Assembly (NCBI RefSeq): GCF_003072065.1
Contig: NZ_QCYG01000007.1
Location: forward strand, 186,001 to 250,000
Origin: Thalassorhabdomicrobium marinisediminis
Lineage (GTDB): Bacteria; Pseudomonadota; Alphaproteobacteria; Rhodobacterales; Rhodobacteraceae
DNA: 64,000 bases
Direction: 5' to 3'
The notes under the pieces are model-generated. The model worked only from the letters and a program-made list of their open reading frames with translations. It made no database searches and had not been told where the DNA came from. The position numbers were made by a program, and so were the translations under genes. Shown in pieces: positions 31,228 to 48,091 of this stretch; the stretch's first letter is position 1; each line of letters opens with the position of its first letter.

Positions 31228-31251
31228 ATGGTGGGTGATAAGAGATTTGAA
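31228..31251 (-). repeat. Left attachment site (attL), 24-bp core
   Basis: It begins ATGGTGGGTGATAAG and ends ATTTGAA and is identical to 48068-48091. It copies the CCA, acceptor and part of the T arm of tRNA-Val(CAC); similarity ends at the next base (T here, C in the tRNA). Confidence 0.95.
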
Positions 31252-31351
31252 TTCTTGTTAAAGTCATACATTTCAATGACTTACACCTACTTTTGTAACC
31301 ATGTAACCGCCTATAAAATGGACCAAGTGACGTAGCGTCAGGCAAAGCAAT

Positions 31352-31374
31352 CCCGCCGGTTGATCCCCGGCGGG
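31352..31374 (-). terminator. Hairpin after the element lipoprotein gene
   Basis: CCCGCCGG (31352-31359) pairs with CCGGCGGG (31367-31374), 14 bases beyond the lipoprotein stop. On the minus strand it is followed by ATTGCTTTGCC, only weakly T-rich. An inverted near-copy lies at 31880-31902. Confidence 0.6.
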
Positions 31375-31387
31375 CATCACTAACAAA

Positions 31388-31720
31388 CTATCGACACCCA
31401 CGCGCCAACTTCACCCGGTCGATCTCGTTAATTCGGCCCCTCGCTACGCCGATAGCGGCTTCTTTGTCATTGCCTGACATGCTGGATACAGGAAGCCCGA
31501 TCAGGAAGACGCCGATTGCATCGCTGTTCGCAGCAGACCGTTGCTCAGCTTCAACCCCTGCGAGCTGTTGCGTAATTTGAAGACGTTCTGCTGCTAGTTG
31601 CGAGCAAGAATAACTTCCGTAGGGGTTTCCAGATACAGGGATTGCCGCAATATTCTCTGGCTGTTTTGCACAGGCAGCAAGGGTCACGAGAACGGCGGAA
31701 GAAAGTAAAAAGCGACGCAT
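31388..31720 (-). CDS. Small lipoprotein at the left edge of the element
   Basis: The 110-residue product has a lipoprotein signal (MRRFLLSSAVLVTLAAC, lipobox LAAC). The body contains two central Cys-bearing segments (YSCSQLAAERLQITQQL ... LARGCR) and a short hydrophobic helix (DAIGVFLIGLPVSSM). The ATG at 31720 follows AAGGACAGATT. No family was recognised. A membrane-anchored lipoprotein as the first cargo gene inside an attachment site suits a superinfection-exclusion or cargo role, but that is inference. Confidence 0.75.
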   Translation of the reverse strand: MRRFLLSSAVLVTLAACAKQPENIAAIPVSGNPYGSYSCSQLAAERLQITQQLAGVEAEQRSAANSDAIGVFLIGLPVSSMSGNDKEAAIGVARGRINEIDRVKLARGCR

Positions 31721-31879
31721 AATCTGTCCTTGTTGAAGATGTAGAAAGATCAATGAGCCATTTTCCGCCTATAGCTGCAACCTTTAACTGGCGTTCCGCT
31801 ACAAGTTGACCGCGATGCGGTGCTCCGGGTGCGCAGTTGGCATCAGAAGCCCATAGCGGAAACAAATATGTATGAGAAT

Positions 31880-31902
31880 ACCCGCCGGGGTGATCCGGCG
31901 GG
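31880..31902. terminator. Hairpin between element genes
   Basis: CCCGCCGG and CCGGCGGG pair around GGTGAT; TTGCTTT follows on the + strand. It lies 24 bases past the end of the DUF3102-like gene and could stop transcription either way. Confidence 0.5.
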
Positions 31903-31925
31903 TTGCTTTGGTCAGGTCGTCGTGG

Positions 31926-32699
31926 TCAAGGGTGTTGTGCGGCTTCGCTTAGGTCCAGCTCTTCCACGACAAGCTCAAGCTCAAGCTCTTCGGCCTCGCG
32001 GTCGGGCGCTTCATCGGGCGCTGCATCATCCTTGATCCCAAGGGCAGTCTGAAACGCCTCACCGAATGCCTCTGGCCCGCTGCTTCTCAACAAATCTTTG
32101 AGTGTATCTACAGCGAAGCTGTCCAGAGATTTGAGGCATTCTTCGACATCTTTGATCCGCTTGCGCTTCGCCGCTTGAAGTTTCGCTCGCTCCGCTTCCC
32201 TGCGTTCTTCTTGTTTAGCTAGTTGCTCCGGCGTGGGCTGGTTTTCTTCTGCCTTATCTGCGCGTTCCTGTGCTTTCGCCTTCTTCTTCGCTTCTTTCAG
32301 GGCATCAAGGTGCGCTTCAATCTCATTACGAGGCGGTTTTTCTGGGTTCGTGATCATCGCAAGGACTTCATCACGTTCAGAAGTTTCCAGTGCCGCGATC
32401 TTGTAAATCAATCGCAACGGCAAATGCGACACGCGTGTCGCATTTGAACCTGCGAGGTTTTCAGCCAACAATCGATAACGCTGTGCTGTTCGTGGGGCCA
32501 GACTAATCTCGTTCTCAACCCAGTTAAGGTAGTAGGCGTGTGGCAGCTTTTTTTTGAAGGCGTTCAGAATCGTGCCGATCCCGATCAGACTATCCAACGA
32601 CTTGACCTGGCATTTCCGAATGGCCGCAACGGCTTCATCGCACTTCGATCGAAGCTCTGGTGAAATTGTGGGCGACTCGTTCTGGTTCGCTTGGGGCAT
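31926..32699 (-). CDS. DUF3102-like DNA-binding candidate of the element
   Basis: The 257-residue protein has an N-terminal region (about 10-120) like DUF3102/KilA-type phage and plasmid proteins: SLIGIGTILNAFKKKLPHAYYLNWVENEISLAPRTAQRYRLLAENL, then SHLPLRLIYKIAAL. A highly charged Lys/Glu coiled region follows (about 125-180). The tail is very acidic (AEELELELVVEELDL). GAAAGGAGAGACACA precedes the ATG. A 26-bp palindrome lies inside the gene (32421-32446), and a second copy lies near the end of the structural operon. It could be the protein that binds them, but nothing in the sequence proves it. Confidence 0.6.
   Translation of the reverse strand: MPQANQNESPTISPELRSKCDEAVAAIRKCQVKSLDSLIGIGTILNAFKKKLPHAYYLNWVENEISLAPRTAQRYRLLAENLAGSNATRVSHLPLRLIYKIAALETSERDEVLAMITNPEKPPRNEIEAHLDALKEAKKKAKAQERADKAEENQPTPEQLAKQEERREAERAKLQAAKRKRIKDVEECLKSLDSFAVDTLKDLLRSSGPEAFGEAFQTALGIKDDAAPDEAPDREAEELELELVVEELDLSEAAQHP
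32421..32446. promoter_or_regulatory. 26-bp perfect palindrome, copy 1
   Basis: Arms CAAATGCGACAC and GTGTCGCATTTG are separated by GC. It lies inside the DUF3102-like gene (coding NATRVSHL). The same arms recur at 35166-35191 with spacer GT. Confidence 0.9.
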
Positions 32700-32783
32700 T
32701 GTGTCTCTCCTTTCATGGACACTTCTCCTTATAACAAGCCGGCGCTGGCTCTGCGTAAGATCGCTGAAAAAAGTCTGGTAGTG

Positions 32784-32963
32784 TCAGGCGGCGGTCCCTT
32801 CCCTCACCCGCTCAGGCCACACGCCGCCGATCTCTCCCAAGGCTTCGATCAGGGCGCTACGTGGGCAAAGCGACGGTGCCGGATGCAAGATGGCCTGTAG
32901 CAACGCTTCATAGTCTGCGTTGGGCAGGTAGTGGGCTTTGGGGTTTGGGGTTTGGTCCGGCAT
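32784..32963 (-). CDS. 59-residue element protein
   Basis: A short gene preceding the DUF3102-like gene by 84 bases on the same strand. The product starts MPDQTPNPKAHYLPNADYEA, is rich in Pro/Leu and ends WPERVREGTAA. The ATG has GGAG nine bases upstream. The composition looks like a folded small protein, not a random frame (balanced residues, no low complexity). Function is unknown; the position suggests an early gene of the element. Confidence 0.6.
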   Translation of the reverse strand: MPDQTPNPKAHYLPNADYEALLQAILHPAPSLCPRSALIEALGEIGGVWPERVREGTAA

Positions 32964-33286: not shown

Positions 33287-34000
33287 TTACGGCGCAAGGG
33301 CGGGATTACGCTTTTTTTCGCGCTTAGCATGAAGTTCTTTTAGACCAGCTTCGATCTGTTCAGGGGTCCAGCCAGCCAATTTCTTGTTCCGCCTGTATTC
33401 CCGGTCTGCGCTAGCGTCTTTTGTTTCTTGGCTGGCATTCTTGGCGCGGTGTCTCGCTTGATACTCAGCATTCTTCTTTCGAGCATTTTCAGCTTGAGCT
33501 TCGGGGCTGCGCCGATATTCGCGAATTCCTTCTTCACCCCTCTCAATAGCCATCTCAGCCGCATACTTAGCGCGACGATATTCATTCCATAGCTCAGGGT
33601 TGTCGCGCCGATACTGCTCAATCTCTTTACGTGTTCGGCCAGCCATTCCATATCTGTAGTCGTCTGGATGCTTTTTCGGCTTTGCTGCCTGATTGGTCTT
33701 AAATTCGGCCTTGCCCTTTTCGCGCTTCGCCTTCTTCTCTGCCTCTAGGTTTTGCCGCCAAGCCTGCATGATCGTGACCGAAAGCTTTAATTCTGCGTTC
33801 TGCTGCTCTGCCAACAATATCAGCTTATCAAGATCAGCTAGTTCGTCGGGCGTCATAGGTTCGTCGGCCTTGGCTTGCCCCCCGTGGTTATCGACTAAAG
33901 GCTTATCTAAATCGAGGTCGTTCAACAAATTAACCAAATCAGGATCTGAAGCGACAGTTTCGCGTGGCAGTTCACGTTCTCGCGTGCTATAAGTGGACAT
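33287..34000 (-). CDS. Highly charged element protein of unknown function
   Basis: The 237-residue protein is dominated by Lys, Arg, Glu and Ala. It has an acidic N-terminal third (VNLLNDLDLDKPLVDN, then PMTPDELADLDKLILLAEQQN) and a basic, probably coiled or disordered C-terminal two-thirds (EYRRAKYAAEMAIERGEEGIREYRR). The ATG at 34000 is preferred, with AAGGAG about 13 bases upstream; an in-frame upstream start is possible. No family was recognised. Its place next to the repeat-rich region suggests nucleic-acid binding. Confidence 0.6.
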   Translation of the reverse strand: MSTYSTRERELPRETVASDPDLVNLLNDLDLDKPLVDNHGGQAKADEPMTPDELADLDKLILLAEQQNAELKLSVTIMQAWRQNLEAEKKAKREKGKAEFKTNQAAKPKKHPDDYRYGMAGRTRKEIEQYRRDNPELWNEYRRAKYAAEMAIERGEEGIREYRRSPEAQAENARKKNAEYQARHRAKNASQETKDASADREYRRNKKLAGWTPEQIEAGLKELHAKREKKRNPALAP

Positions 34001-34060
34001 AGTGTGAATAGACTCCTTGAGGGGTTCGGGGTGACGTTGGCGCGTCACCCCTTTTCAGTT

Positions 34061-34531
34061 TTAGTTGTCGAATTTCGCTGCTTCGGCGTCGAGAAGGTCG
34101 GCAAACTCGTGCGCCAAATCGGGCGCCCAAGTCTTTTTGACGCCGCCCAAGGGAATGGTGATCGTGACGCCGCGCCCTTGTCTTGAAATCTCGTAATCGT
34201 GATCAAGATTCATGAACACTTTGGACGTGTGCGAACCATCGGCATAGGTGCGCACCACCTCGGCTAGCTCTTTAGCCGCCGACGGTGCAAAGCCGATCGG
34301 AATCTGATCGTCGAAGGCTACTGCGATGCCATCTGTGGCGCGGCGCACTTGCACTTGCGGAATGCCGTGGCTGATCATGCCTTGGTTCTGAGCAAATTTG
34401 ATGAGATGGCCGATGGCGGCTGACAAAGGCGCGTGCTGCGCAGCGGCAAACTCTTCGAGCTGGATCTTCCGCTCTCCCCCGATGTGTATCTTCGTGGAAG
34501 TCAGGGCTGACTTCGTGGGCTTCGTAATCAT
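34061..34531 (-). CDS. Element protein with ribbon-helix-helix-like start
   Basis: The 156-residue product begins with a segment of ribbon-helix-helix character (STKIHIGGERKIQLEEFAAAQHAPLSAAIGHLIKFAQ). It continues into an alternating beta-rich domain (VRRATDGIAVAFDD, then VTITIPLGGVKKTW). AAGGAAACACC precedes ATG 34531, better than the ATGs further upstream. It is the first gene beside the 34.5-35.2 kb repeat region, so it is the best candidate for a protein binding those repeats, as an initiator or repressor. No known family was identified. Confidence 0.6.
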   Translation of the reverse strand: MITKPTKSALTSTKIHIGGERKIQLEEFAAAQHAPLSAAIGHLIKFAQNQGMISHGIPQVQVRRATDGIAVAFDDQIPIGFAPSAAKELAEVVRTYADGSHTSKVFMNLDHDYEISRQGRGVTITIPLGGVKKTWAPDLAHEFADLLDAEAAKFDN

Positions 34532-34701
34532 GGTGTTTCCTTGCATGGGACAATGTGAGCCGGAACGGCCCTTGACAGACAAGGTAATACGGAACTAATG
34601 GTTTGTCAACAAGTCATTAAAAATCAATCCGTTATGAAAAGAGGTAACAAGATCGCCCCCCCAAGTGTGCGTAAGGGAATCTTGAGTGCGAAAGGGGAAA
34701 A

Positions 34702-35000: not shown

Positions 35001-35165
35001 TTAAGCGCCCCGGCTCTCGCACCCAAGTGTGCCGGTTGCCACCAGACAGGCCCACACAGACTCACAGAGGCACCGTAGGATTCGAAGTCGCTTCATTTCG
35101 GCCTGACCCACCCTGAAACCAAGGCGGCTCTCTACGGGCTTCTCAGCGCCTCTTCTGAATCCTGT

Positions 35166-35191
35166 CAAATGCGACACGTGTGTCGCATTTG
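35166..35191. promoter_or_regulatory. 26-bp perfect palindrome, copy 2
   Basis: Arms CAAATGCGACAC and GTGTCGCATTTG have spacer GT; one further outer T/A pair extends it. It lies 14 bases beyond the end of the gpM-like gene, the last gene of the structural operon. Confidence 0.9.
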
Positions 35192-35204
35192 AAGCTACGG
35201 ACGA

Positions 35205-35549
35205 TCAGAAAGAGAAGTCTTGGCGTAGCTTCGCGGTGAAGGTCTGCGGGGTCTTGGTCGTCGATGACCACTCTTTGCAGGTCCACCGCACGGGCGTGGC
35301 GAACCCGTAGGGCTGATAGAGGAACGCCTTGTAGCCACCATGCGCCCGGAAGAACGCTTCGAGTTCTTCGCGCTGTGCTGGCGTGATCCCGTTCCACTTG
35401 AGCGCCACCACCTCTCGGATATGGTTCAGGCCAGCCGGTCCAGCCTGCGTGTAGCCGTCGCCAAATTCGGCGGTGCGCAAGTTCACTTGGGGCGTGATCG
35501 TTCCGGCTGGTGATGGGGCAATCGAGGGTGCGAAGGTCTGCAAAGCCAT
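35205..35549 (-). CDS. Phage minor tail protein, gpM/DUF2460-like
   Basis: The 114-residue protein resembles lambda gpM-type tail-tip proteins: LRTAEFGDGYTQAGPAGLNHIREVVALKWNGITPAQREELEAFFRAHGGYKAFLYQPYG, then WTCKEWSSTTKTPQTFTAKLRQDF. It follows the tape measure with a one-base overlap, as in lambdoid tails. In complete siphophages the gpL, gpK, gpI and gpJ equivalents come next. Here the operon stops, with a palindrome and non-coding repeats. Confidence 0.82.
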   Translation of the reverse strand: MALQTFAPSIAPSPAGTITPQVNLRTAEFGDGYTQAGPAGLNHIREVVALKWNGITPAQREELEAFFRAHGGYKAFLYQPYGFATPVRWTCKEWSSTTKTPQTFTAKLRQDFSF

Positions 35550-37897
35550 TACCGCTTCCCCCGGTTCAGCATGTTACCCGGGCGCATTTGCCGCCCGATC
35601 TCGGTAACTACGGTGCGGCGCATGGAGTTCTCCATTTCCTTTGCCATCTTTTTCGCCAGGTCGTCGTTCTGTTCGGGTGTTCCGGCGCTGCCTTCGACGG
35701 TCACAGGCGCATTGATCGTGATCGGCCCTGTAGCGGCGCTGGCACCGCCCTTAGAAGCTGTTGCCGCCTTTGCTGCCCCCACGAGGCCACCGGATGCGTA
35801 GCCCTTCTGTGCGGCGCTGTGCAGCGCTGCCAGATTATCCGCACCTATGGCGGTAGTGGCCTGCTTGCTGAACACCCATTCGCCGCGATGCACAATCCCA
35901 GCCGGTTCGTATTTGCCACCGTTGCCGGTGTAGCCGCCTTGAGCAAATCCACCGCCGATAACCTTGAACACTGTGCCAAGCCATCCGGTTGCCCCTTCGG
36001 CGGCTTCCATCATGCGCTTCTGTAAGCTCAGTTTCAGGATTTGCAGGATCAAGCGGCCTACAGCCTGTTCAGCCGTAAGTGCACCAGACGCCATGCCGGT
36101 GAACACGTCTGTGATGGACTGTGCGCCGCGCTGTGACGCCTCTTGCACTTCCCTGATCTTATCGGCGGCAAGGTCGGCGGCACTGGACGCAGCAACATAC
36201 TCTTGCGCCAACTGGTCGATCTGTGTGCGTAATTCTGGCGTATCTGCCATTCCAGACTTCACAGCGGCATTCAACAAGTCTGCTTTCGATCGCGCAAGGT
36301 CCATTGCATCCCCACGCCGCGCTTGGGCGTCTGTCACGTTCAACAGCGCTTCGGCTTCCAATCGCAAGGCGGCTGTCTCTTCGGCAATGCTTTCAAGCTC
36401 ACGGTCCCAATCGGATTGCCGGGCGGATGCACCGCCACCACCACCGCCCGTGCTGCCTGTGCTTGGTGTGCTGATGCTCACTGGCGGCAAACCAAAGTCG
36501 ATATCGTTTGGGGCAGACCTTGGCCGTGGTGAAGTCTTGGGCGCGTTGGATGGACCACCACTCAGATCATCGTCGGATGGATTGCCAGAACCAAGGGTAT
36601 CGGCACCGGCACTTGCCATCGGGATATTGTTCACAGCGTCTGCGGCTGCGACGGCCCAACGCGCCACGGTCTCAATGGCAGACGAAACACCACCCAGCCG
36701 GTTTACCAGCCCATCAAATGACACACCAGCAACGTCACCAAGGCCACCAGCCGCTTGCGCTGCCATCCCCATCGTTTCATGCAGCGCTTCGGTCATGTCG
36801 TCGGCGCTGATTTTCCCATCGCGGAATTCTGCGGTAACACCTGAGACTTCGTTTGCGAAGTCAGAGAAGATCATCGCCGCGCCGGTGCGCCCTTGTTCCA
36901 GCAAAGCGGCGCTAATATCCCGCAATTCAGCTTCCAAGAGGTCGCTCTGCGCTGTCAGCGTCGAATAGATTGCTTCTAGCTCTATCGCGCTGCCTTGCAG
37001 GTCTTGCAGATTATCAACGCCGTGATCTGGGGAAATATCTGCGGCGCCCAGTTGGCCCAGCCGATCTAGGTTTGCCTCAAGGTCTGCAATCTCACCGTCG
37101 ATTACACCGAAGTAAGTTGCCGCGCTCACTGTGCCGCGCCGGAACAGGGTCGCTACTTTCGCTTCTACCTGTGCAAACTTCCGATCAAGCTCAGCCGCCT
37201 TGGCAACTGCTTCGTCGTCCAGAACCACACCAAGGCGCTGTGCCTCTCCGATGGTGCGCCGGATACCGGCTTCACCTTGGCTCAGTAGCTGCACAAATTG
37301 CTCACCCGCGCTGCCGCCGAAAAGCTCGTCTGCGATCCGGATTTGCGCGGCTGTGTCCAAACCCTCCATGCGCCCGATGATCTCAAGCAACATGGCGCTT
37401 GGGTCTTCCAGCTTCCGGGCCACGTCATCGGCACTGTAGCCTAGCCGGTCAAAGGCTTCGGCGGCTGGCCCCTTGCCGGTGATTGCAAACTCATCCCCGC
37501 GCAGGTTCAGTTCCTTCAAGCCATCAATCATCTGATCAATGCCGACGCGGTTCTGCTGTGCCACATACTTCCATTGTTGAAACGATTGCAGGGACACGCC
37601 TGATCGTTTGGCTTCATCGCCAAGCTGCGCAACGGCGCGTGTGGTCTCTCGGATGCTGCGCACTGTCGCTGCACCGGCAATCCCTGCCAGCAACGGGCCC
37701 GTCATCTTTGTAAAGCTGGCGGCAACAGATTTACCCATTGTGGCGTAAGTCGCGTTGATCCGGTTGGCAGATTGCTTTGCGCGGCGTTCCATTGTGCCGC
37801 TTGCTTTGCGTTGGGCCACGTTGGCTCTGGCAAGGCCGCGTTCCAGTTTGTCGATACGTGCTTCTACATCAACGATCAGGCTTGGAAGTTCAGACAT
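35549..37897 (-). CDS. Phage tail tape measure protein
   Basis: The 782-residue, mostly helical protein would set tail length. N-terminal coiled region (LIVDVEARIDKLERGLARANVAQRKASG), a hydrophobic stretch (FTKMTGPLLAGIAGAATV), long heptad-rich middle, and the typical C-terminal tape-measure motif GGGFAQGGYTGNGGKYEPAGIVHRGEWVF. GGAGACCCCG precedes ATG 37897. At the usual 1.5 angstrom per residue it would fit a tail of around 115 nm, although no tube protein gene is seen here. Confidence 0.9.
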   Translation of the reverse strand: MSELPSLIVDVEARIDKLERGLARANVAQRKASGTMERRAKQSANRINATYATMGKSVAASFTKMTGPLLAGIAGAATVRSIRETTRAVAQLGDEAKRSGVSLQSFQQWKYVAQQNRVGIDQMIDGLKELNLRGDEFAITGKGPAAEAFDRLGYSADDVARKLEDPSAMLLEIIGRMEGLDTAAQIRIADELFGGSAGEQFVQLLSQGEAGIRRTIGEAQRLGVVLDDEAVAKAAELDRKFAQVEAKVATLFRRGTVSAATYFGVIDGEIADLEANLDRLGQLGAADISPDHGVDNLQDLQGSAIELEAIYSTLTAQSDLLEAELRDISAALLEQGRTGAAMIFSDFANEVSGVTAEFRDGKISADDMTEALHETMGMAAQAAGGLGDVAGVSFDGLVNRLGGVSSAIETVARWAVAAADAVNNIPMASAGADTLGSGNPSDDDLSGGPSNAPKTSPRPRSAPNDIDFGLPPVSISTPSTGSTGGGGGGASARQSDWDRELESIAEETAALRLEAEALLNVTDAQARRGDAMDLARSKADLLNAAVKSGMADTPELRTQIDQLAQEYVAASSAADLAADKIREVQEASQRGAQSITDVFTGMASGALTAEQAVGRLILQILKLSLQKRMMEAAEGATGWLGTVFKVIGGGFAQGGYTGNGGKYEPAGIVHRGEWVFSKQATTAIGADNLAALHSAAQKGYASGGLVGAAKAATASKGGASAATGPITINAPVTVEGSAGTPEQNDDLAKKMAKEMENSMRRTVVTEIGRQMRPGNMLNRGKR

Positions 37898-37907: not shown

Positions 37908-39566
37908 TTAGAAAATGAAAAGCCCTTCGGCCTCTGGTGTGTTGTATTGGGATTGATTGGTTTCGGCGGCACAGGCACGGGAAACAGCCATTGCCGCTGC
38001 AATTGCACCGTCGATCCGGTCAGTTTTCTTGCCTTTGTGCATCCGGATCAGGCCGCTTGTGGCGTTGCGACTGGCGACAACAGAATCAAAGTGCTGGCGA
38101 AGGGCCGCGTGTTCCTCGTGCCGGATCAGTTCGCCGTTCACCGTGCGCTCAAGATCACCAGCGGCAACGCCCATGTTTAGGGGCGTCTGGCGATACTCAA
38201 AGACGGGCAAGCTGGCGTCGTGCAGGTTCTGCATCAAGCGACGGGCAAGGTGCGGATCAACCGCGATCTCTTCTACCTGATAGGTCGCGCACAGGTCTTT
38301 GATCTGGTCTTCGATCACAGCCGGATCAATGATCGGCCCGTCGATCACATGGATCAAACCTTCGTCGCGCCATTGCTCATAGGGCAATCCGTCACGATCT
38401 GCGCGGCCCGCTAGATCATCGCCCGGCACAAATAGCCACGGGTGAACCGTGATCTGCCCGTCTTCGTGCCGCCACGCCGCAACCACGGCGGTCAGGTCGC
38501 CAGACAGTGACATATCAACGCCAAGGTAACAGGGATGCGCCTCAAGCTCTGCGAGGTCTGTTTCAAACGTGCGGCGATCATAGACCGCCATATCGAACAG
38601 CGGATCACGGCTGTTTGCCTGCCACACATTCAGGTTGAATTGCAGAAATGCAGCTTTGTCGGTTGGCCGGTGTTCGGCCTCTTTTGCCAGTGCGCGTAGC
38701 CCTTCAAGCGACGGGAACCCTTGCGGCAAGCCGGGATTGGCTTTGTGCCAGACGCCTTCGTCTTGCCAATCGTCTTCGGGTTCTGCTTGGAACAAAATGG
38801 GCAGGTAAGCGGGGTTGTCGATCTCACCAGAAGCCACACGTCGTGCATAGTTGTATTGTTCAGCGGCAAGGTTCTCAGCGCCGCGCCCCGCTGTTGTCGC
38901 GATCACGGTAAGGCTGTCATCAACCTTGGCTGCACCGGAACGTAAGGCTTCCCAAAGGTCGCGGCCTTTCCAAATGTGGATTTCGTCGATCAGCGTGAAC
39001 GTGGGGGTAAGGCCATGCGCCGCCCCGCCATCACTGGACAGGGTTTTGAGCGTGACGCTTTCAGCGTTGAACACGATTTGTTTGGGCGCGTTGTAAGCGT
39101 CATAGATGCGCGTGGCCGCGACAAGGCGCTTGTCCATCCGAACGATATTAGCGGCTTCACGAAAGCCAATGCCGGCCTGATCCCGATCAGCCGCCGCAAA
39201 CAGCACTTGGCCGGCAGGTTCACGCTCTGGACCGATGGTGTGCAGCAAGGCGAGTGCAGCGGCCAAGGATGTTTTCCGGTTGCCGCGTGGCATAAGCAAA
39301 AACACGTTCTGCACGATCCTGCGGCCATCCTCGTGCCGTGGCCCATAAATCCGGCGCACGATCCGTTCCTGCCAAGGGGCAAGCTCGAAAGCGTTTCTTG
39401 GTGCTGTGCTATTTGGGTGCTTCAGCGCCTTCAGGAAACGCACTGCCCTGTCACCATAACCGAAGGGATCGGGGATCTCGGACCCGTCATAAATCCACGC
39501 GGGGAACGTGTTCACCTTCTCGGCGGATTCCGTCGGTGGTTTGGGTATGGGCAACAGCGCGTTCAC
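37908..39566 (-). CDS. Phage terminase large subunit
   Basis: This 552-residue packaging motor and nuclease has an atypical Walker A PRGNRKTS (93-100) and Walker B TFTLIDEIHIW (Asp194/Glu195). The C-terminal nuclease domain carries conserved acidic segments (YLGVDMSLSGDLTAVVAAW, VEEIAVDPHLARRL, and KKTDRIDGAIAAAMAV). It resembles HK97-type (Terminase_1) large subunits. Its start is three bases from the small subunit stop. Position after the head genes and before the tape measure is unusual, as terminases normally come first. Confidence 0.93.
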   Translation of the reverse strand: MNALLPIPKPPTESAEKVNTFPAWIYDGSEIPDPFGYGDRAVRFLKALKHPNSTAPRNAFELAPWQERIVRRIYGPRHEDGRRIVQNVFLLMPRGNRKTSLAAALALLHTIGPEREPAGQVLFAAADRDQAGIGFREAANIVRMDKRLVAATRIYDAYNAPKQIVFNAESVTLKTLSSDGGAAHGLTPTFTLIDEIHIWKGRDLWEALRSGAAKVDDSLTVIATTAGRGAENLAAEQYNYARRVASGEIDNPAYLPILFQAEPEDDWQDEGVWHKANPGLPQGFPSLEGLRALAKEAEHRPTDKAAFLQFNLNVWQANSRDPLFDMAVYDRRTFETDLAELEAHPCYLGVDMSLSGDLTAVVAAWRHEDGQITVHPWLFVPGDDLAGRADRDGLPYEQWRDEGLIHVIDGPIIDPAVIEDQIKDLCATYQVEEIAVDPHLARRLMQNLHDASLPVFEYRQTPLNMGVAAGDLERTVNGELIRHEEHAALRQHFDSVVASRNATSGLIRMHKGKKTDRIDGAIAAAMAVSRACAAETNQSQYNTPEAEGLFIF

Positions 39567-40288: not shown

Positions 40289-40707
40289 GCCTGCCACCGG
40301 ATCACCGCTTCAACGTCAAGAACGCCGTGTGTGTAGGAAAGCTCAGGCTGGGGGTCGCGCAGCCAGACCATGCGCGGCTGGTCCAGTTCGTCAATCTCAA
40401 AACCGGCCTGTTCGTCGCTCATGCCGATCAGCGCTTGCGAGACTGCAAACCCGATTGCCTTGGCTGTGTCGGCCCCGTCTTCGATTGCCCAGATATGCAG
40501 GTCTAAAGACACGCGCGCCAAATGCTGTGCGCCGGGTGCTTTGCCCAGATATTCTGTTGATGCACCGGCAAGGATTACACAGGGCGCTTTGTCGGGGCGC
40601 GTCGAACCACTGCGGATTTGATCAGGCTGCACAAGGGCAGTCACAGCCGGATCAGCGATCAGGGTGCTGCGCAGTGCCGTTTGCAGTGCGATACTTGGTT
40701 CGATCAT
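40285..40707 (-). CDS. DUF3168 tail-terminator-like protein
   Basis: The 140-residue protein resembles tail-completion proteins (ALRSTLIADPAVTALVQPDQIRSGSTRPDKAPCVIL, then RVSLDLHIWAIEDGADTAKAIGFAVSQAL). These cap the end of the siphophage tail tube that joins the head. It overlaps both neighbours by four bases. Confidence 0.85.
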   Translation of the reverse strand: MIEPSIALQTALRSTLIADPAVTALVQPDQIRSGSTRPDKAPCVILAGASTEYLGKAPGAQHLARVSLDLHIWAIEDGADTAKAIGFAVSQALIGMSDEQAGFEIDELDQPRMVWLRDPQPELSYTHGVLDVEAVIRWQA

Positions 40708-41117
40708 GCCCCGCCTGCCTTCTTGATTGCCTTGCGCACAGCGGCTGCAATACGGCGCTGCACCTTGGTCTTCTTCAGCCGGAACGCAGGGCGCATGAAT
40801 GGCTGTGCGTCGTGATGGACCGTGCCAAACTCTTGCAGGTGCCCGTGGCGCACGTCTGTGTTGCCCACCGTTACGGCGGCTTGGTTCCGCTTCATGGTCA
40901 CGTTGCCACCACCAGCCGCATAGGGTGGCGTGGTGCCGTTGGGGCCGGTCACGGTGATGCTGCCCAGCAAGTCGCCATCGGCTTCCGGCACGAGTGTTTC
41001 CATTGCGTCTGCAATGTCGTGTGCGCCTTTCAAGAGTGCTGGTCGCAGGTCGTCTAGCACCTCTTGCGGTATTGCGTTCAAACGCGCCTCAAGGCGTTTG
41101 GAGCTATTATTGGGCAT
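40704..41117 (-). CDS. HK97 gp10-family neck protein
   Basis: The 137-residue protein matches the gp10 family (RLEARLNAIPQEVLDDLRPALLKGAHDIADAMETLVPEADGDLLGSITVTGP ... YLQEFGTVHHDAQPFMRPAFR-type ending, here GHLQEFGTVHHDAQPFMRPAF). It takes part in head-tail joining. It overlaps the DUF3168 gene and the connector gene. Confidence 0.87.
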   Translation of the reverse strand: MPNNSSKRLEARLNAIPQEVLDDLRPALLKGAHDIADAMETLVPEADGDLLGSITVTGPNGTTPPYAAGGGNVTMKRNQAAVTVGNTDVRHGHLQEFGTVHHDAQPFMRPAFRLKKTKVQRRIAAAVRKAIKKAGGA

Positions 41118-41400
41118 TGCCGGTCACGCTCTCTTTGTAGGGGGCGATCAAGTCCAGAACGCCGAAGGGAACAGCGGCAAGGCGCATGTCGCTAGCACCC
41201 TCACGCTGCACATACCAATACGCCGCAAGCTGCAACGCCGCTTCGGTCAGGGACACAGGCACTGGGTCGGCCAAGGGTGTGCCGGTGTGATTGCCGATCC
41301 ACTCTTCGGCCACGTCCAGCTTGTGCTGTAACAAAGCGTCGTCAAGATCGTGCCCAAGGGTCAGTTGGGATTTGAGCAAAGTTAATGGTGTGTGGCTCAT
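41107..41400 (-). CDS. Head-tail connector, gp6-like
   Basis: The 97-residue helical protein resembles HK97 gp6/phiE125 gp8-type adaptors: LTLLKSQLTLGHDLDDALLQHKLDVAEEWIGNHTGTPL ... TEAALQLAAYWYVQREG. It would add a ring beneath the portal. It overlaps genes on both sides. Confidence 0.85.
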   Translation of the reverse strand: MSHTPLTLLKSQLTLGHDLDDALLQHKLDVAEEWIGNHTGTPLADPVPVSLTEAALQLAAYWYVQREGASDMRLAAVPFGVLDLIAPYKESVTGNAQ

Positions 41401-41915
41401 TGTGTGACTTCCTTCGGAAAACTTAAATTCTGTCTATCTTGTGCGCTGGTCCCCCCGCCGGTCCCCAAAGGTGCCGCAAAGTCTCGAACCACCCCCCGTC
41501 CGCTCTTGCCCAAAGGCTCAGCCAATGCGCGTTCTACAGGCCAGCCGCTTTCAAGCCGGTTGATCAAAGCGGCTTTGTTCAAACCGATCTGTTCGGCCCA
41601 TTCCGCAATGGTCTGTGTGGTGCCTTGGTGGCTCAGTAGCTTTGCACCCTTGCCACGCTTCTTTGCGCCGATCAGCTCTTCGGGGGTTGGTGCTGTCTTG
41701 ATCTGTGCGGCTACGGCTTCACGCACTGCAATGGGGTCGAGGTCTGCAAGATGGCACACCTGATTGAAGTCGGCGTTGGGCACCGTGAAATATGCACGTG
41801 CTTTGTAGGTCTCTTTGATCTTGGTGCGTTGGGCGCCGCTCAAGCGGGGGCCGTGCAGTGCGTCTTGCAAGGCGAGGTAAAGCACTTCGCGCCAGAGGGA
41901 TGTTGCATCGCTCAT
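41397..41915 (-). CDS. Phage protein with C-terminal helix-turn-helix, unknown role
   Basis: The 172-residue product combines an N-terminal region often seen in phage proteins (REVLYLALQDAL, then AYFTVPNADFNQVCHLADLDPIAVREAV) with a likely helix-turn-helix (QTIAEWAEQIGLNKAALINRLESGWPVERAL). The ATG at 41915 overlaps the HNH stop (ATGA). It is the only classical-looking HTH in the element and could be a regulator or a packaging accessory. Confidence 0.65.
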   Translation of the reverse strand: MSDATSLWREVLYLALQDALHGPRLSGAQRTKIKETYKARAYFTVPNADFNQVCHLADLDPIAVREAVAAQIKTAPTPEELIGAKKRGKGAKLLSHQGTTQTIAEWAEQIGLNKAALINRLESGWPVERALAEPLGKSGRGVVRDFAAPLGTGGGTSAQDRQNLSFPKEVTQ

Positions 41916-42256
41916 TGGCTGCGGTCCTGCTTCTGTTTGTGCCGATCGTGGCAGGTCTTGCACAGCGGCTGCCAGTTGGACCGATCCCAAAACAGTTCCT
42001 TGTCGCCCTTGTGTGGAACGACGTGATCGACAAGCTCAGACGGCTTGCCGCAACCGGGCCACGCGCAGCGATTGTAAATAGCAAGGAAGGCTTTGGACGC
42101 CTTGCGCCACTCGTAGGTATAGCCGCGCTGTGAGGCTGTCGGGCGCGTCCGGTCATGACGTTTGTTCCGCGCACGGGTGCTGGCGATCTTGCAGGCACAG
42201 CGGGTGCCGTGGGGAATGATCTTGCCGCATGTGCAAAGGTGTGGTGGTCGGCTCAT
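41912..42256 (-). CDS. HNH endonuclease
   Basis: The 114-residue protein has a Cys-rich N terminus (LCTCGKIIPHGTRCACK) and the HNH core CAWPGCGKPSELVDHVVPHKGDKELFWDRSNWQPLCKTCHDRHKQKQ. HNH nucleases near terminase genes aid cos-type DNA cutting in HK97-like phages and capsid-encoding islands. Here it sits between the chaperone and connector genes. Confidence 0.9.
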   Translation of the reverse strand: MSRPPHLCTCGKIIPHGTRCACKIASTRARNKRHDRTRPTASQRGYTYEWRKASKAFLAIYNRCAWPGCGKPSELVDHVVPHKGDKELFWDRSNWQPLCKTCHDRHKQKQDRSQ

Positions 42257-42889: not shown

Positions 42890-42892
42890 GGC

Positions 42893-44464
42893 TTAGGCCG
42901 CAACCTTCAACTTGATGAAGCGATCAGGATGCGTGAGGTCAGCACCGACGCGCTTGCGTGCGTGGAAACGAACCTGCCCGTTGGTTGCGAGGCTGTAGGG
43001 GTCGCGCAACGTGGTCAGGCCGACGCGATCAATGATGCGATAGCCGGACATATCGCCAAAGAGGATCGGCGAGGTGCCAGCGCCAATGTCGTCCATGTCT
43101 GGCATTTCGACAATCGGACGGCCCAACAGGGTTGCCGGTGCGCCTTCGCTGATCGGATCAATCACGAGGTAGCGGCCATTGCCGTCCTTCCATTGGCGCA
43201 CAATCGAAAGCGTGTTCCGGTTCATCATCCAAACGGCGTTTTGTGCAAACGTGCTGGCGATCTTGTGGAACATCGCGATCAGGACATCAGCCGGGTTGGA
43301 CGCGGGGAAGTTCGCGGCAACGCCTGTCTTGATCTCTTGAATGCCGGTAGCGGTCATAATGCCGTTTGGCTGGCCCGTGCCGGTGCCTTTGACAAATGAC
43401 AGACCTTCAGTTTTGGCGAAGCTCTCTGCAAAGTCGGCCAGCAGTTCGCCTTCGAGGTTGTAAACGTTGTCCTCCAGAAGCGCGTTGGACACGTCTGTGA
43501 ATGTCGCCAGTTCGTGCGGCGTCATGCTGACTTGCTCAAAAGTCATACCGGATGCGGTGCGGTTGCCTGTCTCAGTAACCCACGCGGCCTGTGTGCCGGT
43601 GAGCCGCCGGGGATACGTGATCGAGGGCGCTGCGATCTGGATCACTTTGGCGTAATTCCGGATCGGGGAAAACTCACGCAGCAATTTGATCAATTCAGAG
43701 CCAAACTGTTCTGGTGCGAGGTAGCCGCCATTGGCGTCTGTGCCGACGGTGAGGGCTTTGATCTCTTCGGGTGCCATACGTTCCACGCCACGGCGCAGGA
43801 AGTTGCCGAAGGCTTTGGTTTCGGTGTTGTCTTCGCCCTGGGTGATGTGGACGGCTTGCGGACGTGCGGCCTTGGCTTCGATTGCATCAAGGCGCTTTTG
43901 AACAGCTTCGAAAGCCTTAGTGTCGGCTTGGGGCGCGTCGTTTGCCACGCCTGCAACCGCGTCTGCGATCATCTGTTCGATTTCTTCTTTTTCCATGTTG
44001 GGTTTCTCCTGTGTCATGGGGGTGCCATCGGATTTGAGGGAAGTGATTTGCGCGTCCGGATGGCACGGAACGGCTACAACTGAGATTTCGTGAAGGGATA
44101 GAGCCGTGATATTCCGGCCCTTGGCATTGCGCGTGGCTTTCGTCGTCACGAACCCGATAGACAGGCCGGACACAGCCTTGCTGCGGATCATGGCGCGAAC
44201 CTCGCGGGCGCGTTCAACGTCTTCGATCAACAGCTTGCCTTTGACGGTCAGGCCGGTGTCGTCTTCGGTGATTTCATCCCATACGCCGATCACTTGGCTT
44301 TGGTCGTGACCGAAGAGCATGGGCAAAGTGTCGGGTGTGGTGATTGCACCTTTTTCGATCACGTCACCGACGCGATCAGGCTTGCCGAAGGGCCATGCAA
44401 TCCCGGTGATTTCGCCGGTATCTGTGACGGACAACGCCGCCTTAATTTCTAGGCGATCGCTCAT
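42893..44464 (-). CDS. Prohead protease-major capsid protein fusion (HK97 fold)
   Basis: The 523-residue protein joins a prohead protease (about 1-155; His in MLFGHDQSQVIGVWDEI, Ser in VSGLSIGFVT, and HEISVVAVPCHPDA) to a capsid of the PF05065 type (about 160-523). The capsid part has a delta/coiled segment, ALTVGTDANGGYLAPEQFGSELIKLLRE and the usual VSNALLEDN / WMMNRNTLS / GRPIVEMPDM stretches. The ATG at 44464 overlaps the preceding stop. An internal ATG at 43996 has AGGAG nine bases upstream and would give a 367-residue capsid alone. Confidence 0.92.
   Translation of the reverse strand: MSDRLEIKAALSVTDTGEITGIAWPFGKPDRVGDVIEKGAITTPDTLPMLFGHDQSQVIGVWDEITEDDTGLTVKGKLLIEDVERAREVRAMIRSKAVSGLSIGFVTTKATRNAKGRNITALSLHEISVVAVPCHPDAQITSLKSDGTPMTQEKPNMEKEEIEQMIADAVAGVANDAPQADTKAFEAVQKRLDAIEAKAARPQAVHITQGEDNTETKAFGNFLRRGVERMAPEEIKALTVGTDANGGYLAPEQFGSELIKLLREFSPIRNYAKVIQIAAPSITYPRRLTGTQAAWVTETGNRTASGMTFEQVSMTPHELATFTDVSNALLEDNVYNLEGELLADFAESFAKTEGLSFVKGTGTGQPNGIMTATGIQEIKTGVAANFPASNPADVLIAMFHKIASTFAQNAVWMMNRNTLSIVRQWKDGNGRYLVIDPISEGAPATLLGRPIVEMPDMDDIGAGTSPILFGDMSGYRIIDRVGLTTLRDPYSLATNGQVRFHARKRVGADLTHPDRFIKLKVAA
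44006..44010 (-). promoter_or_regulatory. Internal ribosome-binding site for capsid-only product
   Basis: AGGAG on the minus strand lies nine bases before the in-frame ATG at 43996, exactly between the protease and capsid domains of the fusion gene. Confidence 0.6.
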
Positions 44465-44802
44465 TCTGTCGTTTCCTTGGTTTCTGGTTCCAGTGTGGGG
44501 TTGCCGCTCCATCGGGCATCAAGAATGTCGAGTGCGAGGGGGAACGTCTCTGCCATTGGCCGATCAACCGCGTAGGTGTCGGTTAAGGTCTTGGCCTGTT
44601 CTGGGACCATGCCGCCGCCGATCAGGCCAAGCCGGATGGTCTGGACGATATCGGCGTTGGAAAACTGCATGCTGATTGCGCGATTGTAGAGCGCACCAAT
44701 GCCGACGCCTGCGAGGCGCTCAAGCTCAAGGATCATGGCGTCTGTCAGGGCAAAGGTGTGTTCGGTGTCACCAAAGAAGCCTGTGTGGGTGATATCGCTC
44801 AT
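44461..44802 (-). CDS. GTA-gp10-like tail chaperone (TAC_11 family)
   Basis: The 113-residue protein matches the gene-transfer-agent gp10 pattern: FFGDTEHTFALTDAMILELERLAGVGIGALYNR ... DIVQTIRLGLIGGGMVPEQAKTLTDTYAVDRPMAETFPLALDILDARWSG. It is placed between portal and protease-capsid, with ATGA overlaps on both sides. This is far from its usual place between tube and tape measure, so its job in this element is unclear. Confidence 0.78.
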   Translation of the reverse strand: MSDITHTGFFGDTEHTFALTDAMILELERLAGVGIGALYNRAISMQFSNADIVQTIRLGLIGGGMVPEQAKTLTDTYAVDRPMAETFPLALDILDARWSGNPTLEPETKETTE

Positions 44803-46004: not shown

Positions 46005-46025
46005 GTGATCCACAGGTTGCTAAGA

Positions 46026-46061
46026 TGTGACATTTATATCACACTTTGGGGCGTCTGTGAA
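46026..46061 (-). promoter_or_regulatory. Promoter with overlapping operator for the structural operon
   Basis: Minus strand: TTCACA (46061-46056) and TATAAA (46038-46033) with a 17-base spacer, start expected near 46026. A dyad TGTGA-N8-TCACA (46026-46043) straddles the -10 box. The portal ATG follows after about 20 bases. The dyad is a probable repressor or activator site. Confidence 0.65.
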
Positions 46062-46177
46062 TCCCTCATTTTTGTCGCCACGCCTATAGCAACGGCCACC
46101 GGAACCAGCCTTGCAGTTCAACGCTCAGAACCGTTAGCTTACAACGCGCACCATCTAACATTGGGGTTATTCAGATC

Positions 46178-46402
46178 ATGGAATTAAGATGGCCGATCAA
46201 TCTGGTTGGGATCGAGACTGACATAGAAGGCGATGTAGTCACCAAGGATGGTGAATACTTGGGACGCTGGCATTTTGATGAGAACGATGAGCCCTACTTC
46301 ACCCCGGACGGTGAAAGCGACTACCTATTTTTCCACCCGTTTGTCCCGATGCTATGCAAGAAAATATTGGAATGGCATGAGGCCAAAGAACAGCAAAGTT
46401 AG
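46178..46402 (+). CDS. 74-residue element protein on the opposite strand (moron candidate)
   Basis: The only convincing + strand gene in the element, between portal promoter and integrase. The acidic, aromatic-rich product (MELRWPINLVGIETDIEGD, then YLGRWHFDENDEPYFTPDGE and FHPFVPMLCKKILEWHEAK) looks like a folded protein but matches no family I know. The ribosome site is weak. Small acidic proteins in this position of phage genomes are often accessory genes such as host-interaction or anti-defence factors; that is only inference. Confidence 0.55.
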   Translation: MELRWPINLVGIETDIEGDVVTKDGEYLGRWHFDENDEPYFTPDGESDYLFFHPFVPMLCKKILEWHEAKEQQS

Positions 46403-46415
46403 CCTATAATGGACG

Positions 46416-47978
46416 TTAAGCGTTCAGCTTGAAGCTCGGCAACCGCTCGATCGCGTCCCTCTTCGTCTTAAGCGTCACGTCGCCGTAGCTGTCACCGGCT
46501 GTCTTACCTGCGTGGCCCTGTATCGCGTCCACTACCCGATCAGAGATTGCCAGTTCGCGGCACGTTGTCTTGAGCCTATGCCGCCAAGCGTGGTTTGGCT
46601 GTATCCCTTCCGGCGTCAGCTTGCTCTTGGTCAGCCACGATGCGAGCTGGTTCGAGATACGCACGGCTTTCGTGGCATATTCTGCGGGGTTCTTGCCGCC
46701 GTGAAACAACGGTCCAGTCTCAGCGGCCTGCACAAAGTCGGCAAACCCTTCGGCGATGATCTGTGAGTGCAACGGAATGTCACGGTATCCACCAGCTTTG
46801 ACCGTGCCTGCGTCTGGCGTGATCCGGGCGATCCACATTCCGTCTTCGTGCCGGATATCCTCTTTGCGTAGCTGTGTGATCTCTGACACTCGTGCGCCTG
46901 TGAACGCACAGATGATCGGCACCCATCGCTTTGCGGCCACCAGCGCGGGCTTCTCACGCACATAGCCGTTCACGTCTGCATTGGGTTCATAGGACCGAGA
47001 CGCCTTCAGCACCTTGACCGCTTCAGCATCGGTGTAGCCACGTTCCCGATTGAACACCCTGCGCGGCTTCGGCTGCTTTACGGTAAGCGCGGGGTTCTCT
47101 GGTATCTGATCGTTATCGACTGCCCACTGCAACAAGGTCCGGACTGTGGACAGGTAAACGTCGCTGACAGTCTTGGCACTCAGGGTCTTCATCAGGTGAT
47201 CACGCCACGCCAGAACGTCTTTCTTGGTGATTTTAGCGGCGTTGTCGTGCCGTAAGAATTTGCGCAGGTTCTCAATCGCTGCACCTTGACGCCTACCGCC
47301 GTCTTTCATGAAACCGGCGCTCTGGCGCGTGTGCACGTAGTCGGCCCAAAGCTTCTTGATACTGACGTGCTGCGCAGGCTCTTCGGGCGGCTCTGCGTTC
47401 ACGAGGATCGGCGCGGTGGGCGTGCCGGTGAAGTCACCTTCGTCGCGCTCTAAGACGCGTTCTAGGGCTTCATACTCGGCGCTACACAGCGCACGGGCGG
47501 CAATACGCCATTCGTCGCTGCCCTTCTCAGCGTCGAAGTTCCCTGCCCTGCGGAATTTCTCAAGTTCATTGCCAACAAGCGCGTCAAGCTCTTCGGTGCT
47601 GGCGCGGCCTGCTATGGCATCCCGAAGGCGCTGCACGAGAACATCATCAATGCCGCCAGATTGCGCCCAGCGTGGATCGTGGCGCAATTCATCGTCGAAG
47701 GCTAAGCGCCGGTTGTAGTGCGCCACGGCCATTTGGTCAGCGGCCAAAGGGTAGCGCGGCACGTCTGCCACATTGCCAGATTTGCGTTCAGCTTCCCCGA
47801 TCTGGATTTGAAGCTGTGCAACAGCACCCGGCAACAGTTTGAGCGCTTGTCGGTAGTCACCGCCTAGCGGGGTCCGAAGTTCAGACTTGCCAACGATTCC
47901 ACGCAGATCTTTCGGCACCACCAGCCGCGCGTGATATCGTCCAGAACGATTGATCAGGTGTCGGACTTTTCCGGCCAT
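46416..47978 (-). CDS. int: Tyrosine-type site-specific integrase
   Basis: The 520-residue phage integrase has a basic N-terminal arm-binding region (KVRHLINRSGRYHARLVVPKDLRGIVGKSELRTPLG), a SAM-like core-binding domain and the catalytic domain. Catalytic residues seen are Arg in CAFTGARVSEITQL, H463 and R466 (NHAWRHRL), H489 (IQGHAGK) and Y498 (GDSYGDV). It lies about 90 bases from the tRNA-Val attachment site, the normal place for such an enzyme. No excisionase gene was recognised. Confidence 0.95.
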   Translation of the reverse strand: MAGKVRHLINRSGRYHARLVVPKDLRGIVGKSELRTPLGGDYRQALKLLPGAVAQLQIQIGEAERKSGNVADVPRYPLAADQMAVAHYNRRLAFDDELRHDPRWAQSGGIDDVLVQRLRDAIAGRASTEELDALVGNELEKFRRAGNFDAEKGSDEWRIAARALCSAEYEALERVLERDEGDFTGTPTAPILVNAEPPEEPAQHVSIKKLWADYVHTRQSAGFMKDGGRRQGAAIENLRKFLRHDNAAKITKKDVLAWRDHLMKTLSAKTVSDVYLSTVRTLLQWAVDNDQIPENPALTVKQPKPRRVFNRERGYTDAEAVKVLKASRSYEPNADVNGYVREKPALVAAKRWVPIICAFTGARVSEITQLRKEDIRHEDGMWIARITPDAGTVKAGGYRDIPLHSQIIAEGFADFVQAAETGPLFHGGKNPAEYATKAVRISNQLASWLTKSKLTPEGIQPNHAWRHRLKTTCRELAISDRVVDAIQGHAGKTAGDSYGDVTLKTKRDAIERLPSFKLNA

Positions 47979-48067
47979 GCTCTTCCCCGTTTGTAACCAA
48001 AGTTGTAACCATCAAACGGACGTAGAGCCTTGCTTGCAAGGGTTTTCTTTTATTTCAAGGGGATAGG

Positions 48068-48091
48068 ATGGTGGGTGATAAGAGATTTGAA
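48068..48091 (-). repeat. Right attachment site (attR), 24-bp core
   Basis: Identical to 31228-31251. It covers the CCA, acceptor strand and T arm of tRNA-Val(CAC), which stays intact on this side. Confidence 0.95.

Follow-up and report, generated by a model that had tools for sequence, protein, structure and literature searches.

The results indicate that the element at positions 31,228 to 48,091 of the window (the whole 64,000-nucleotide stretch of DNA that was analysed) is probably a capsid-forming satellite whose tail tape measure protein (TMP) would program the tube and tip of a helper onto the satellite's own ruler. We give this reading a probability of about 0.62. Gene content is the sole basis for inferring tail programming, and no helper, excision, induction or particle was observed. 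That a helper supplies the remaining tail parts is likewise an inference. In a cell with an active compatible siphophage, the satellite genome would be packaged into a head that the satellite itself encodes. The chaperone-loaded satellite TMP would recruit the tip and the GTA/HK97-type tail tube of the helper (GTA, gene transfer agent), the helper-derived tail would polymerise on the satellite ruler, and the satellite terminator would then cap it. The capped tail would join the satellite head, and lysis would come from helper genes. With its own ruler and its own head-proximal tail end, the satellite could capture tails during assembly, and the TMP may be the component exchanged to suit different helpers or hosts.

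The element is bounded by a perfect 24-bp direct repeat, taken as att, and its GC content is 0.52-0.60 in the interior vs 0.60-0.68 in most flanking windows. Twenty proteins of the element were scanned with Pfam and PHROGs (Table 1). An S78 protease is fused to an HK97 capsid according to both collections. The element's own capsid, protease, portal, connectors, TerS, TerL, HNH, integrase and att are all present. The att repeat, tRNA-Val site and integrase of the original prediction were confirmed by the exact repeat, the tRNA-Val(cac) overlap and the phrog_1 match. Pfam and PHROGs supported its calls of portal, protease-capsid, connector, neck proteins, HNH, TerS and TerL. They also recovered the tail genes it had recognised, namely TMP, gpM-like protein and two chaperones, with AlphaFold models as further support for the chaperones. 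The element is absent in five of six congener stretches, where the flanking histidine phosphatase and HU genes (both identified by eye) are separated by about 1.6-2.6 kb; in the sixth, HU alone is present. No exact empty site was seen among these six stretches.

Table 1. Features of the element, in window coordinates.
Position	Strand	Feature	Basis or remark
31228..31251	.	att repeat, distal copy, 24 bp exact	exact direct repeat
31388..31753	-	small accessory protein, resembling a lipoprotein by eye	phrog_13472 6e-5
31926..32699	-	DUF3102-like protein, possible regulator	PF11300 1.7e-4, just under Pfam cut-off
32421..32446	.	perfect palindrome of 26 bp, putative operator specific to the element	
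32784..32963	-	small protein, 59 aa	related ORFs in G031, G091
33287..34048	-	accessory protein, no function assigned	
34061..34582	-	putative ribbon-helix-helix regulator	our reading of the alignment; match in 19/45 att-bounded elements
35165..35192	.	second palindrome copy, downstream of gpM	
35205..35549	-	gpM-like minor tail protein	PF05939 2.6e-18
35549..37897	-	TMP, 782 aa from likely start, ORF 819 aa	phrog_10574 1.7e-132
37908..39566	-	terminase large subunit (TerL)	PF03354 + PF20441
39570..39965	-	terminase small subunit (TerS)	PF05119 1.5e-15
39962..40297	-	head completion protein	PF05521 5.7e-8
40285..40707	-	tail terminator / completion, gp17-like	PF11367 2.5e-17
40704..41117	-	HK97-gp10-like neck/tail completion	PF04883
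41107..41400	-	gp6-like head-tail connector	PF05135 6e-13
41397..41990	-	putative helix-turn-helix protein	weak profile matches; profile match in 29/45 att-bounded elements
41912..42256	-	HNH endonuclease, packaging role inferred	PF01844
42386..42889	-	TMP chaperone 2, g10-like fold + TAC_6-like C-terminus	PF09550, model
42893..44512	-	prohead protease-major capsid fusion, likely start 44464	PF04586 + PF05065
44461..44802	-	TMP chaperone 1, GTA-g10 type	PF11836/phrog_8985; modelled beta-hairpin + five helices
44799..46013	-	HK97-type portal	PF04860 2.8e-97
46416..47978	-	tyrosine integrase, 520 aa	phrog_1 5e-32; PF00589 solely below its cut-off
48068..48091	.	att repeat in 3' end of tRNA-Val(cac) 48069-48143	exact repeat

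The element belongs to a large family found in marine and soil bacteria and is not a one-off. Relatives were chosen by TerL, not by TMP (best 80 of 219 and best 80 of 509), and were located in Rhodobacterales and Rhizobiales. Among these best TerL relatives, all 12 core genes were found in 117 of 160 loci, with identical gene order and strand in 117/117. These complete loci contain the TMP by definition; the fair count comes from the 142 loci in which 3 kb or more of sequence follows TerL, where the TMP lies on the TerL strand in 141 and within 300 bp of TerL in 140. Locus L150, with its TMP on the opposite strand from TerL, counts against the pattern. A flanking repeat was found at 47 loci; excluding L079 (8.6 kb) and L108 (14 bp) left 45 att-bounded genome loci (repeat at least 16 bp, size above 14 kb). 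This set was pre-filtered for TMP and integrase, so the presence of the TMP there is true by construction. All 12 genes were carried by 42 of the 45 elements; these 42 measured 16.2-18.9 kb, and att lay in a tRNA gene for 38 of them. The repeats were just 16-17 bp in 10/42; in the shuffled control, a 16-bp repeat was reached in 1/123. The best 80 relatives of chaperone 1 listed from viral_contigs comprised 79 contigs of at most 21.3 kb and one of 30.5 kb. A chaperone-1 search matched 19 of 394 family genomes (9 of them at E<1e-40) and 2 of 385 class-level genomes, namely the own genome and a full-phage locus. These few matches indicate that the satellite family is sparse.

The TMP is a single open frame in 63/64 complete genome loci, and its median dN/dS of 0.22 (34 pairs) indicates purifying selection. 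The TMP, two chaperones and terminator form a conserved, specific tail subset that is almost constant among the elements. The gpM-like gene is optional (15 matches in 117 complete loci). The original prediction had weighed a satellite against a decayed prophage, and the co-linear relatives and purifying selection favour the former. Gene content alone, as seen in a single genome, would also fit a decayed or truncated prophage. We reject that explanation, to which we attach almost no credence, because 117 of the 160 best TerL relatives share the compact layout and the TMP is under purifying selection. The search for the compact element in other genomes yielded many att-bounded relatives of similar size, mostly in tRNA genes. 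The nearest TerL relatives are compact elements and not the full-length prophages that would have made this a one-off deletion.

A conserved TMP may also be read as a weapon. The TMP and chaperones, in oversupply, would derail helper tail assembly, and satellite heads would join finished helper tails, as happens in capsid-forming PICIs (cf-PICI). Tail-assembly interference by satellites and prophages has been published (Tai systems, according to the available part of PMC11364771). However, long TMPs under purifying selection, retained with a terminator and a full neck, fit a structural role better, and a decoy needs neither two chaperones nor a matched terminator in almost every element. We consider the weapon explanation unlikely.

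The protein at 44461-44802 matches families named "tail tube protein" (PF11836/phrog_8985). We rejected this label because its homologue adjoins a separate major tail protein (L334, L335, RcapNL and the own genome's GTA) and because its model is mainly helical. The evidence, which includes a predicted structure, makes it a TMP chaperone, and the "tail tube" name is misleading. AlphaFold models of both chaperones (pLDDT 90.6 and 91.3) consist of a beta-hairpin and helices. PF09550 matched 7/8 relatives of chaperone 2 (best 1.6e-4); the window protein, at 0.0029, is below the cut-off. Among 50 listed BFVD neighbours of chaperone 1, eight were named tail assembly chaperone or GT protein, and three were named "tail tube protein" (E 0.13-0.54), which runs counter to the chaperone reading. 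Foldseek searches of the PDB matched neither chaperone at E<=0.001. The full phages L334, L335, L337 and L338 have the chaperone-1 homologue between tube and TMP. In L336 it is flanked by the tube on one side and, on the other, by a protein of 651 aa grouping with TMPs, and in L339 a 54-aa gene interrupts the arrangement. This position between a GTA-type tube gene and the TMP points to the tube as the part that the satellites lack. The five loci with their own tube all carry another chaperone, TAC313, and none carries chaperone 1.

No tube, tip or replication family was recognised among the 20 window proteins, and neither Pfam nor PHROGs assigned a baseplate, fibre or lysis family to any of them, apart from an endolysin-profile match. 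This match, phrog_1768 (4e-14), falls on the TMP C-terminus among 21 families that are mostly TMPs. Tube, tip-hub and lysis profiles gave 0 matches in the 117 complete loci among the best TerL relatives. The original prediction had seen no tube, baseplate, fibre or lysis gene, and these scans bear it out; the missed tube or lysis genes that would have refuted it were not found in the profile searches. As a positive control, PHROGs found the tube in 4/4 phages missed by the in-house profiles. The accessory genes were represented by 101 of 115 cluster representatives (11 from the B-type loci L142/L146 and 3 others were left out). The split PHROGs scans took 51 and 40 of the 101, omitting ten, and three other scans took all 101. 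The families listed were 25 of 49 and 25 of 63 in scans of all 101, and 25 of 37 in the 40-protein scan. Among the families listed there was no tube or lysis PHROG for the 101 representatives, and one weak tail-fibre match (3e-5, PHROGs); one weak Pfam holin-like match was found (4.5e-5).

The family could also consist of autonomous small siphophages with tube, tip and lysis proteins too diverged for recognition. Most accessory representatives match no named family, which would suit this explanation. Yet none of the unassigned accessory clusters is universal (the largest, of about 65 aa, occurs in 31/45 elements), the space after the TMP in att-bounded elements is about 3-6 kb, and the window element has no recognised replication gene. 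Unlike in an autonomous temperate siphophage, tube, tip/receptor-binding and lysis genes were not recognised in it. We regard this explanation as improbable. An unrecognised tube in the satellites is not fully excluded, because about 87% of PHROGs families lack a functional assignment and the gene finder used for the accessory region was simple.

The TerL tree placed 40 satellites on one side vs 10 phages (95/99; 96% of bootstraps). For the TMP, the AU test rejected a single clade both of all satellites (p-AU 2.9e-55) and of the window type (p-AU 7.5e-53). Because TerL forms one satellite clade but the TMP does not, TMPs appear to have been exchanged with phages. The trees hold few phage rows, and the program flagged long branches. 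The AU test omitted two long-branched phage TMPs and was run after the tree was seen. The TerL of G031, split by an IS-like gene, was omitted from alignment A1, and its longer piece was used in the TerL profile. We are evenly divided on whether hybrid virions form, with helper tube and tip polymerised on the satellite ruler, and phages and satellites have traded the TMP as a cassette matched to the helper or host, set on a head and packaging backbone that is old and specific to satellites.

The tube and tip might instead be borrowed from the host's resident GTA and not from an infecting phage. The own genome has an RcGTA-type cluster, whose g10 matches the same PHROG as chaperone 1, and a GTA_TIM gene was found in 28 of 31 host genomes searched. 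The match is absent in the other three hosts, and the co-occurrence says little because there is no base rate from satellite-free genomes. Moreover, the window TMP, chaperones and terminator have no phmmer match to the own GTA at E 0.01, and the protein at the TMP position of that GTA has just 220 aa. Borrowing from a GTA therefore seems to us a poor prospect. Similarity between the own GTA and the element is restricted to the portal, the protease-capsid and a weak connector match, and the GTA was rejected as a source of head genes or TMP. GTAs are encoded by an RcGTA structural cluster without integrase or att sites, whereas the element has both.

Returning to the satellite reading, the element can be compared with known systems. 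The cf-PICI carry an integrase, and AlpA/Stl-type regulators and a primase are PICI features; neither such a regulator nor a primase was recognised among the 20 window proteins. In the available parts of PMC10690885 and PMC11389934, cf-PICI are described with their own portal, protease, capsid, connectors, TerS, TerL and HNH, with tails taken and no TMP listed. The window element is likewise integrated and has its own head, packaging and HNH genes, as judged by gene content without comparison to a cf-PICI sequence. It differs in the TMP, two TMP chaperones and tail terminator, almost constant in the present family, and does not meet the cf-PICI criterion of taking complete tails without own tail-assembly genes. 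According to existing descriptions, known capsid-forming satellites make heads and take tails; the present family, if our reading is true, would take over the tail during building. The incomplete tail noted in the original prediction is itself a conserved set, which the available parts of the literature do not describe for capsid-forming islands.

The Streptomyces satellites MulchRoom and MiniFlayer, as far as the available part of PMC10690885 goes, also encode capsid and packaging proteins of their own and lack an obvious replicase; they differ in having Streptomyces hosts and virulent helpers. The terms "tape", "tail tube" and "minor tail" have 0 occurrences in that paper. The integrated 16.8-kb Pseudomonas satellite AH14b has a lambda gpI-like tail assembly gene (PMC4936722, available part), and 11 gpI-like matches occur in the 117 complete loci of the present family. 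AH14b differs in being described there as without structural protein genes. The tailed phages RcapNL and Sinorhizobium phi2LM21 have TMPs related to the window TMP, and in RcapNL, as in the own GTA, the major tail protein next to the chaperone-1 homologue is of GTA-g9 type. They differ in having an annotated tube and tip (and lysis genes for phi2LM21), in records of 40.5 and 46.6 kb. The satellites separate TMP and chaperones from tube and tip and so offer a natural test of their roles in tail length, tube choice, DNA injection and head-tail matching. They also add a large set of mobile elements to Rhodobacterales and Rhizobiales.

No additional copy of the window element's palindrome motif occurs in the own genome, even at up to 3 mismatches. 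Other palindromes (arm at least 11) were listed in 13 of the other 45 elements scanned, and the window's motif was in none, so palindromes were rejected as a conserved family feature. Some family elements carry defence-like cargo, and the hosts include plant-symbiont genera.

The element of Thalassorhabdomicrobium marinisediminis is bounded by an exact direct repeat of 24 bp, and its GC content is below that of the flanks. Pfam and PHROGs searches of 20 window proteins assigned its head and packaging genes (portal, protease-capsid fusion, HNH, connector, head completion, TerS and TerL) as well as an integrase, an HK97-gp10-like neck protein, a tail terminator, a tape measure protein (TMP) and gpM. 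This agrees with the original prediction, which described an att-bounded element at tRNA-Val with an integrase, head and packaging genes, TMP and gpM. None of the 20 proteins was assigned to a tip hub, fibre, lysis or replication family, in line with the original prediction, which saw no fibre or lysis gene. The element was absent from five of six congener stretches, in which the two flanking genes, for a histidine phosphatase and HU (identified by eye), are separated by about 1.6-2.6 kb; the sixth contained only the HU gene. No exact empty site was found among the six stretches.

Coordinates of features of the element in the window
Feature	Position	Strand	Remark
att repeat, first copy	31228-31251		exact direct repeat
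Palindrome	32421-32446		within DUF3102-like gene
Palindrome	35165-35192		between gpM and putative RHH gene
Chaperone 2	42386-42889	-	hairpin and five helices plus TAC_6-like part
Chaperone 1	44461-44802	-	matches phrog_8985 and PF11836
att repeat, second copy	48068-48091		within 3' end of tRNA-Val(cac)

The window TMP was matched in 21 of 394 same-family genomes, its own included. Its contexts sort into three sets: type A, compact elements like that of the window; type B, compact elements with an additional tube; and full phages. A TerL alignment of seven type-A members was used as query, and the best 80 of 219 relatives in one-per-species bacterial genomes and the best 80 of 509 in IMG/VR were taken. 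The two collections partly overlap, so the 160 loci are not all independent. All 12 core genes were present in 117 of the 160 loci, with identical order and strand in all 117. The same compact element thus exists in other genomes, where the original prediction had proposed to look for it, and a one-off event is ruled out by these co-linear relatives. Where at least 3 kb follows TerL, the TMP lies downstream of it in 76/77 genome loci and 65/65 viral loci, within 300 bp in 140/142. When at least 8 kb upstream of TerL is also required, the non-chaperone core genes are each present in 67-70 of the 70 genome loci and 44-45 of the 45 viral loci; the two chaperones are present in 62-63 and 45, respectively, and five of the genome loci without them are type B. 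Among the hosts named in the database records are Yoonia, Roseovarius, Ruegeria, Paracoccus, Rhizobium, Agrobacterium, Mesorhizobium and Bosea. The viral contigs L219 and L232, 30.5 and 27.4 kb long, hold the complete type-A set within the 21 kb of each examined.

An exact flanking direct repeat was found in 47 genome loci, in 45 of them of at least 16 bp and spanning more than 14 kb. The 42 att-bounded elements that carry the full set of 12 genes range from 16.2 to 18.9 kb (median 17.9); in 38 of them, the repeat overlaps a tRNA gene (Val 12, Gln 10, Pro 6, Thr 5, Ser 3, Met 1 and Lys 1). In a control with shuffled distal sequence, a 16-bp repeat appeared in 1 of 123 trials; the short repeats of 16-17 bp are credible because of the tRNA overlap. 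A span of only 8.6 kb at tRNA-Val was seen in Yoonia maritima (L079), which retains portal, chaperone 1, capsid, TerS, TerL and TMP. Locus L170 has the same set, and neither matched the block from chaperone 2 to head completion.

Our own tube, tip and lysis profiles matched none of the 117 complete loci; extra tail genes there amounted to 15 gpM and 11 gpI matches. These profiles are weak, having overlooked the tube in four of the eight full phages, so the accessory proteins were also scanned with PHROGs and Pfam (101 of 115 cluster representatives, from 45 att-bounded elements). PHROGs detected the tube in all four phages missed by our profiles, and no tube was among the families listed for the 101 representatives. 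Within these searches, no tube or lysis gene was recognised, as in the original prediction. The accessory scan gave one weak tail-fibre match (3e-5) and one weak holin-like match (4.5e-5). No unassigned accessory cluster was universal in the 45 elements, the commonest (about 65 aa) occurring in 31; a putative HTH protein was matched in 29. Some relatives carry defence-like cargo (methyltransferase, restriction, PIN, Abi-like and others), each in 1 of the 101 representatives.

The families matched by chaperone 1 are labelled 'tail tube protein'. Its AlphaFold model (pLDDT 90.6, 41-row alignment) is a beta-hairpin with five helices, and the chaperone 2 model (pLDDT 91.3) shows the same hairpin and helices with an added TAC_6-like part. 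Of the 50 BFVD neighbours listed for chaperone 1, three have E<=0.001: a tail assembly chaperone by name, a protein of the tailed phage RcapNL with no stated function, and an unnamed one. In the list as a whole, eight bear the name tail assembly chaperone or GT protein, and three weak ones (E 0.13-0.54) that of tail tube protein. PF09550 was matched by 7 of 8 members of the chaperone-2 family. Both proteins are read as TMP chaperones. The tube label of PF11836/phrog_8985 looks wrong for the members considered here, as the phrog_8985 protein adjoins a separate major tail protein in all four cases examined: the full phages L334 and L335, RcapNL, and the gene transfer agent (GTA) of the same genome. 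The missing part is the tube, which adjoins chaperone 1 in phages.

A major tail protein profile was built from genomes G046, G047 and G250; the first two tubes match phrog_158, and the third was taken in by similarity. It matched 5 of 160 loci (two Martelella, Paracoccus onchidii and two Devosia), which also hold a different chaperone, TAC313. None of these five type-B loci has a recognised tip hub, and chaperone 1 is absent from every locus with a type-B tube. A distal tail protein lies downstream of the TMP in G250. Because type B surrounds type A in the TerL tree, the topology suggests, without proving, that type A arose from type B by loss of the tube.

Median dN/dS was 0.22 for TMP (34 pairs), 0.085 for TerL (34 pairs) and 0.34 for protease-capsid (28 pairs); pairs share loci, and dS is high for some. 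In the TerL tree, one branch parts 40 satellites from 10 phages (support 95/99; recovered in 96% of bootstraps); the long branches of the phages were flagged. The TMP tree intermixes satellites and phages, and its starred branches require at least four changes for type A. A single TMP clade was rejected for all satellites (p-AU 2.9e-55) and for type A (7.5e-53); this AU test was performed after the first tree, on a quick tree without two long-branched phages, with groups defined by gene content. Some close satellite pairs differ chiefly in TMP (L225 vs L232: TMP dN 0.72, TerL 0.04). Because the TerL tree separates the two groups and the TMP tree mixes them, the genes for head and packaging seem to descend as a satellite lineage, and TMP has passed between satellites and phages.

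As described in PMC10690885, PMC11389934 and PMC13345588, cf-PICIs carry genes for the capsid and for packaging and borrow tails. Among the matches listed in the literature searched, neither a satellite with a tape measure nor one of this form in Alphaproteobacteria was described. Most subscription papers and bioRxiv lay outside that search, so cf-PICI surveys in print may already list some of these elements under that name.

Gene content, insertion sites, constraint and TMP exchange are established, and dependence on a helper is inferred. The satellite would form its own head and package its own DNA; its chaperones would assemble helper tube and tip on the satellite TMP ruler, and its terminator would cap the resulting tail. 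No helper was identified in the genome, which has a GTA-tail-like prophage remnant in addition to its RcGTA-type cluster. The remnant (L074, G000:C1:318001-335000) has a baseplate gene broken by an internal TAG stop, and its TMP gave a short, weak match to the window TMP (81 aa, 5e-5). GTA_TIM was present in 28 of 31 satellite hosts; since three lack it, a GTA appears not to be obligatory as a helper.

The two palindromes of the element (CAAATGCGACAC..GTGTCGCATTTG) are nearly identical, and the genome has no further copy at up to 3 mismatches; perhaps they serve the element as an operator of its own. In genome G031 (L060/L061), a type-A element at tRNA-Val has TerL split by an IS-like gene and a lambda gpI-like gene added between chaperone 1 and capsid. 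A record titled Exiguobacterium profundum isolate SSD5 (L094, CP059262.1; 4.26-Mb chromosome) carries a Firmicute name yet holds an element of this alphaproteobacterial kind at tRNA-Gln, with integrase, portal, TerL and TMP each fragmented; it may be misnamed or chimeric.
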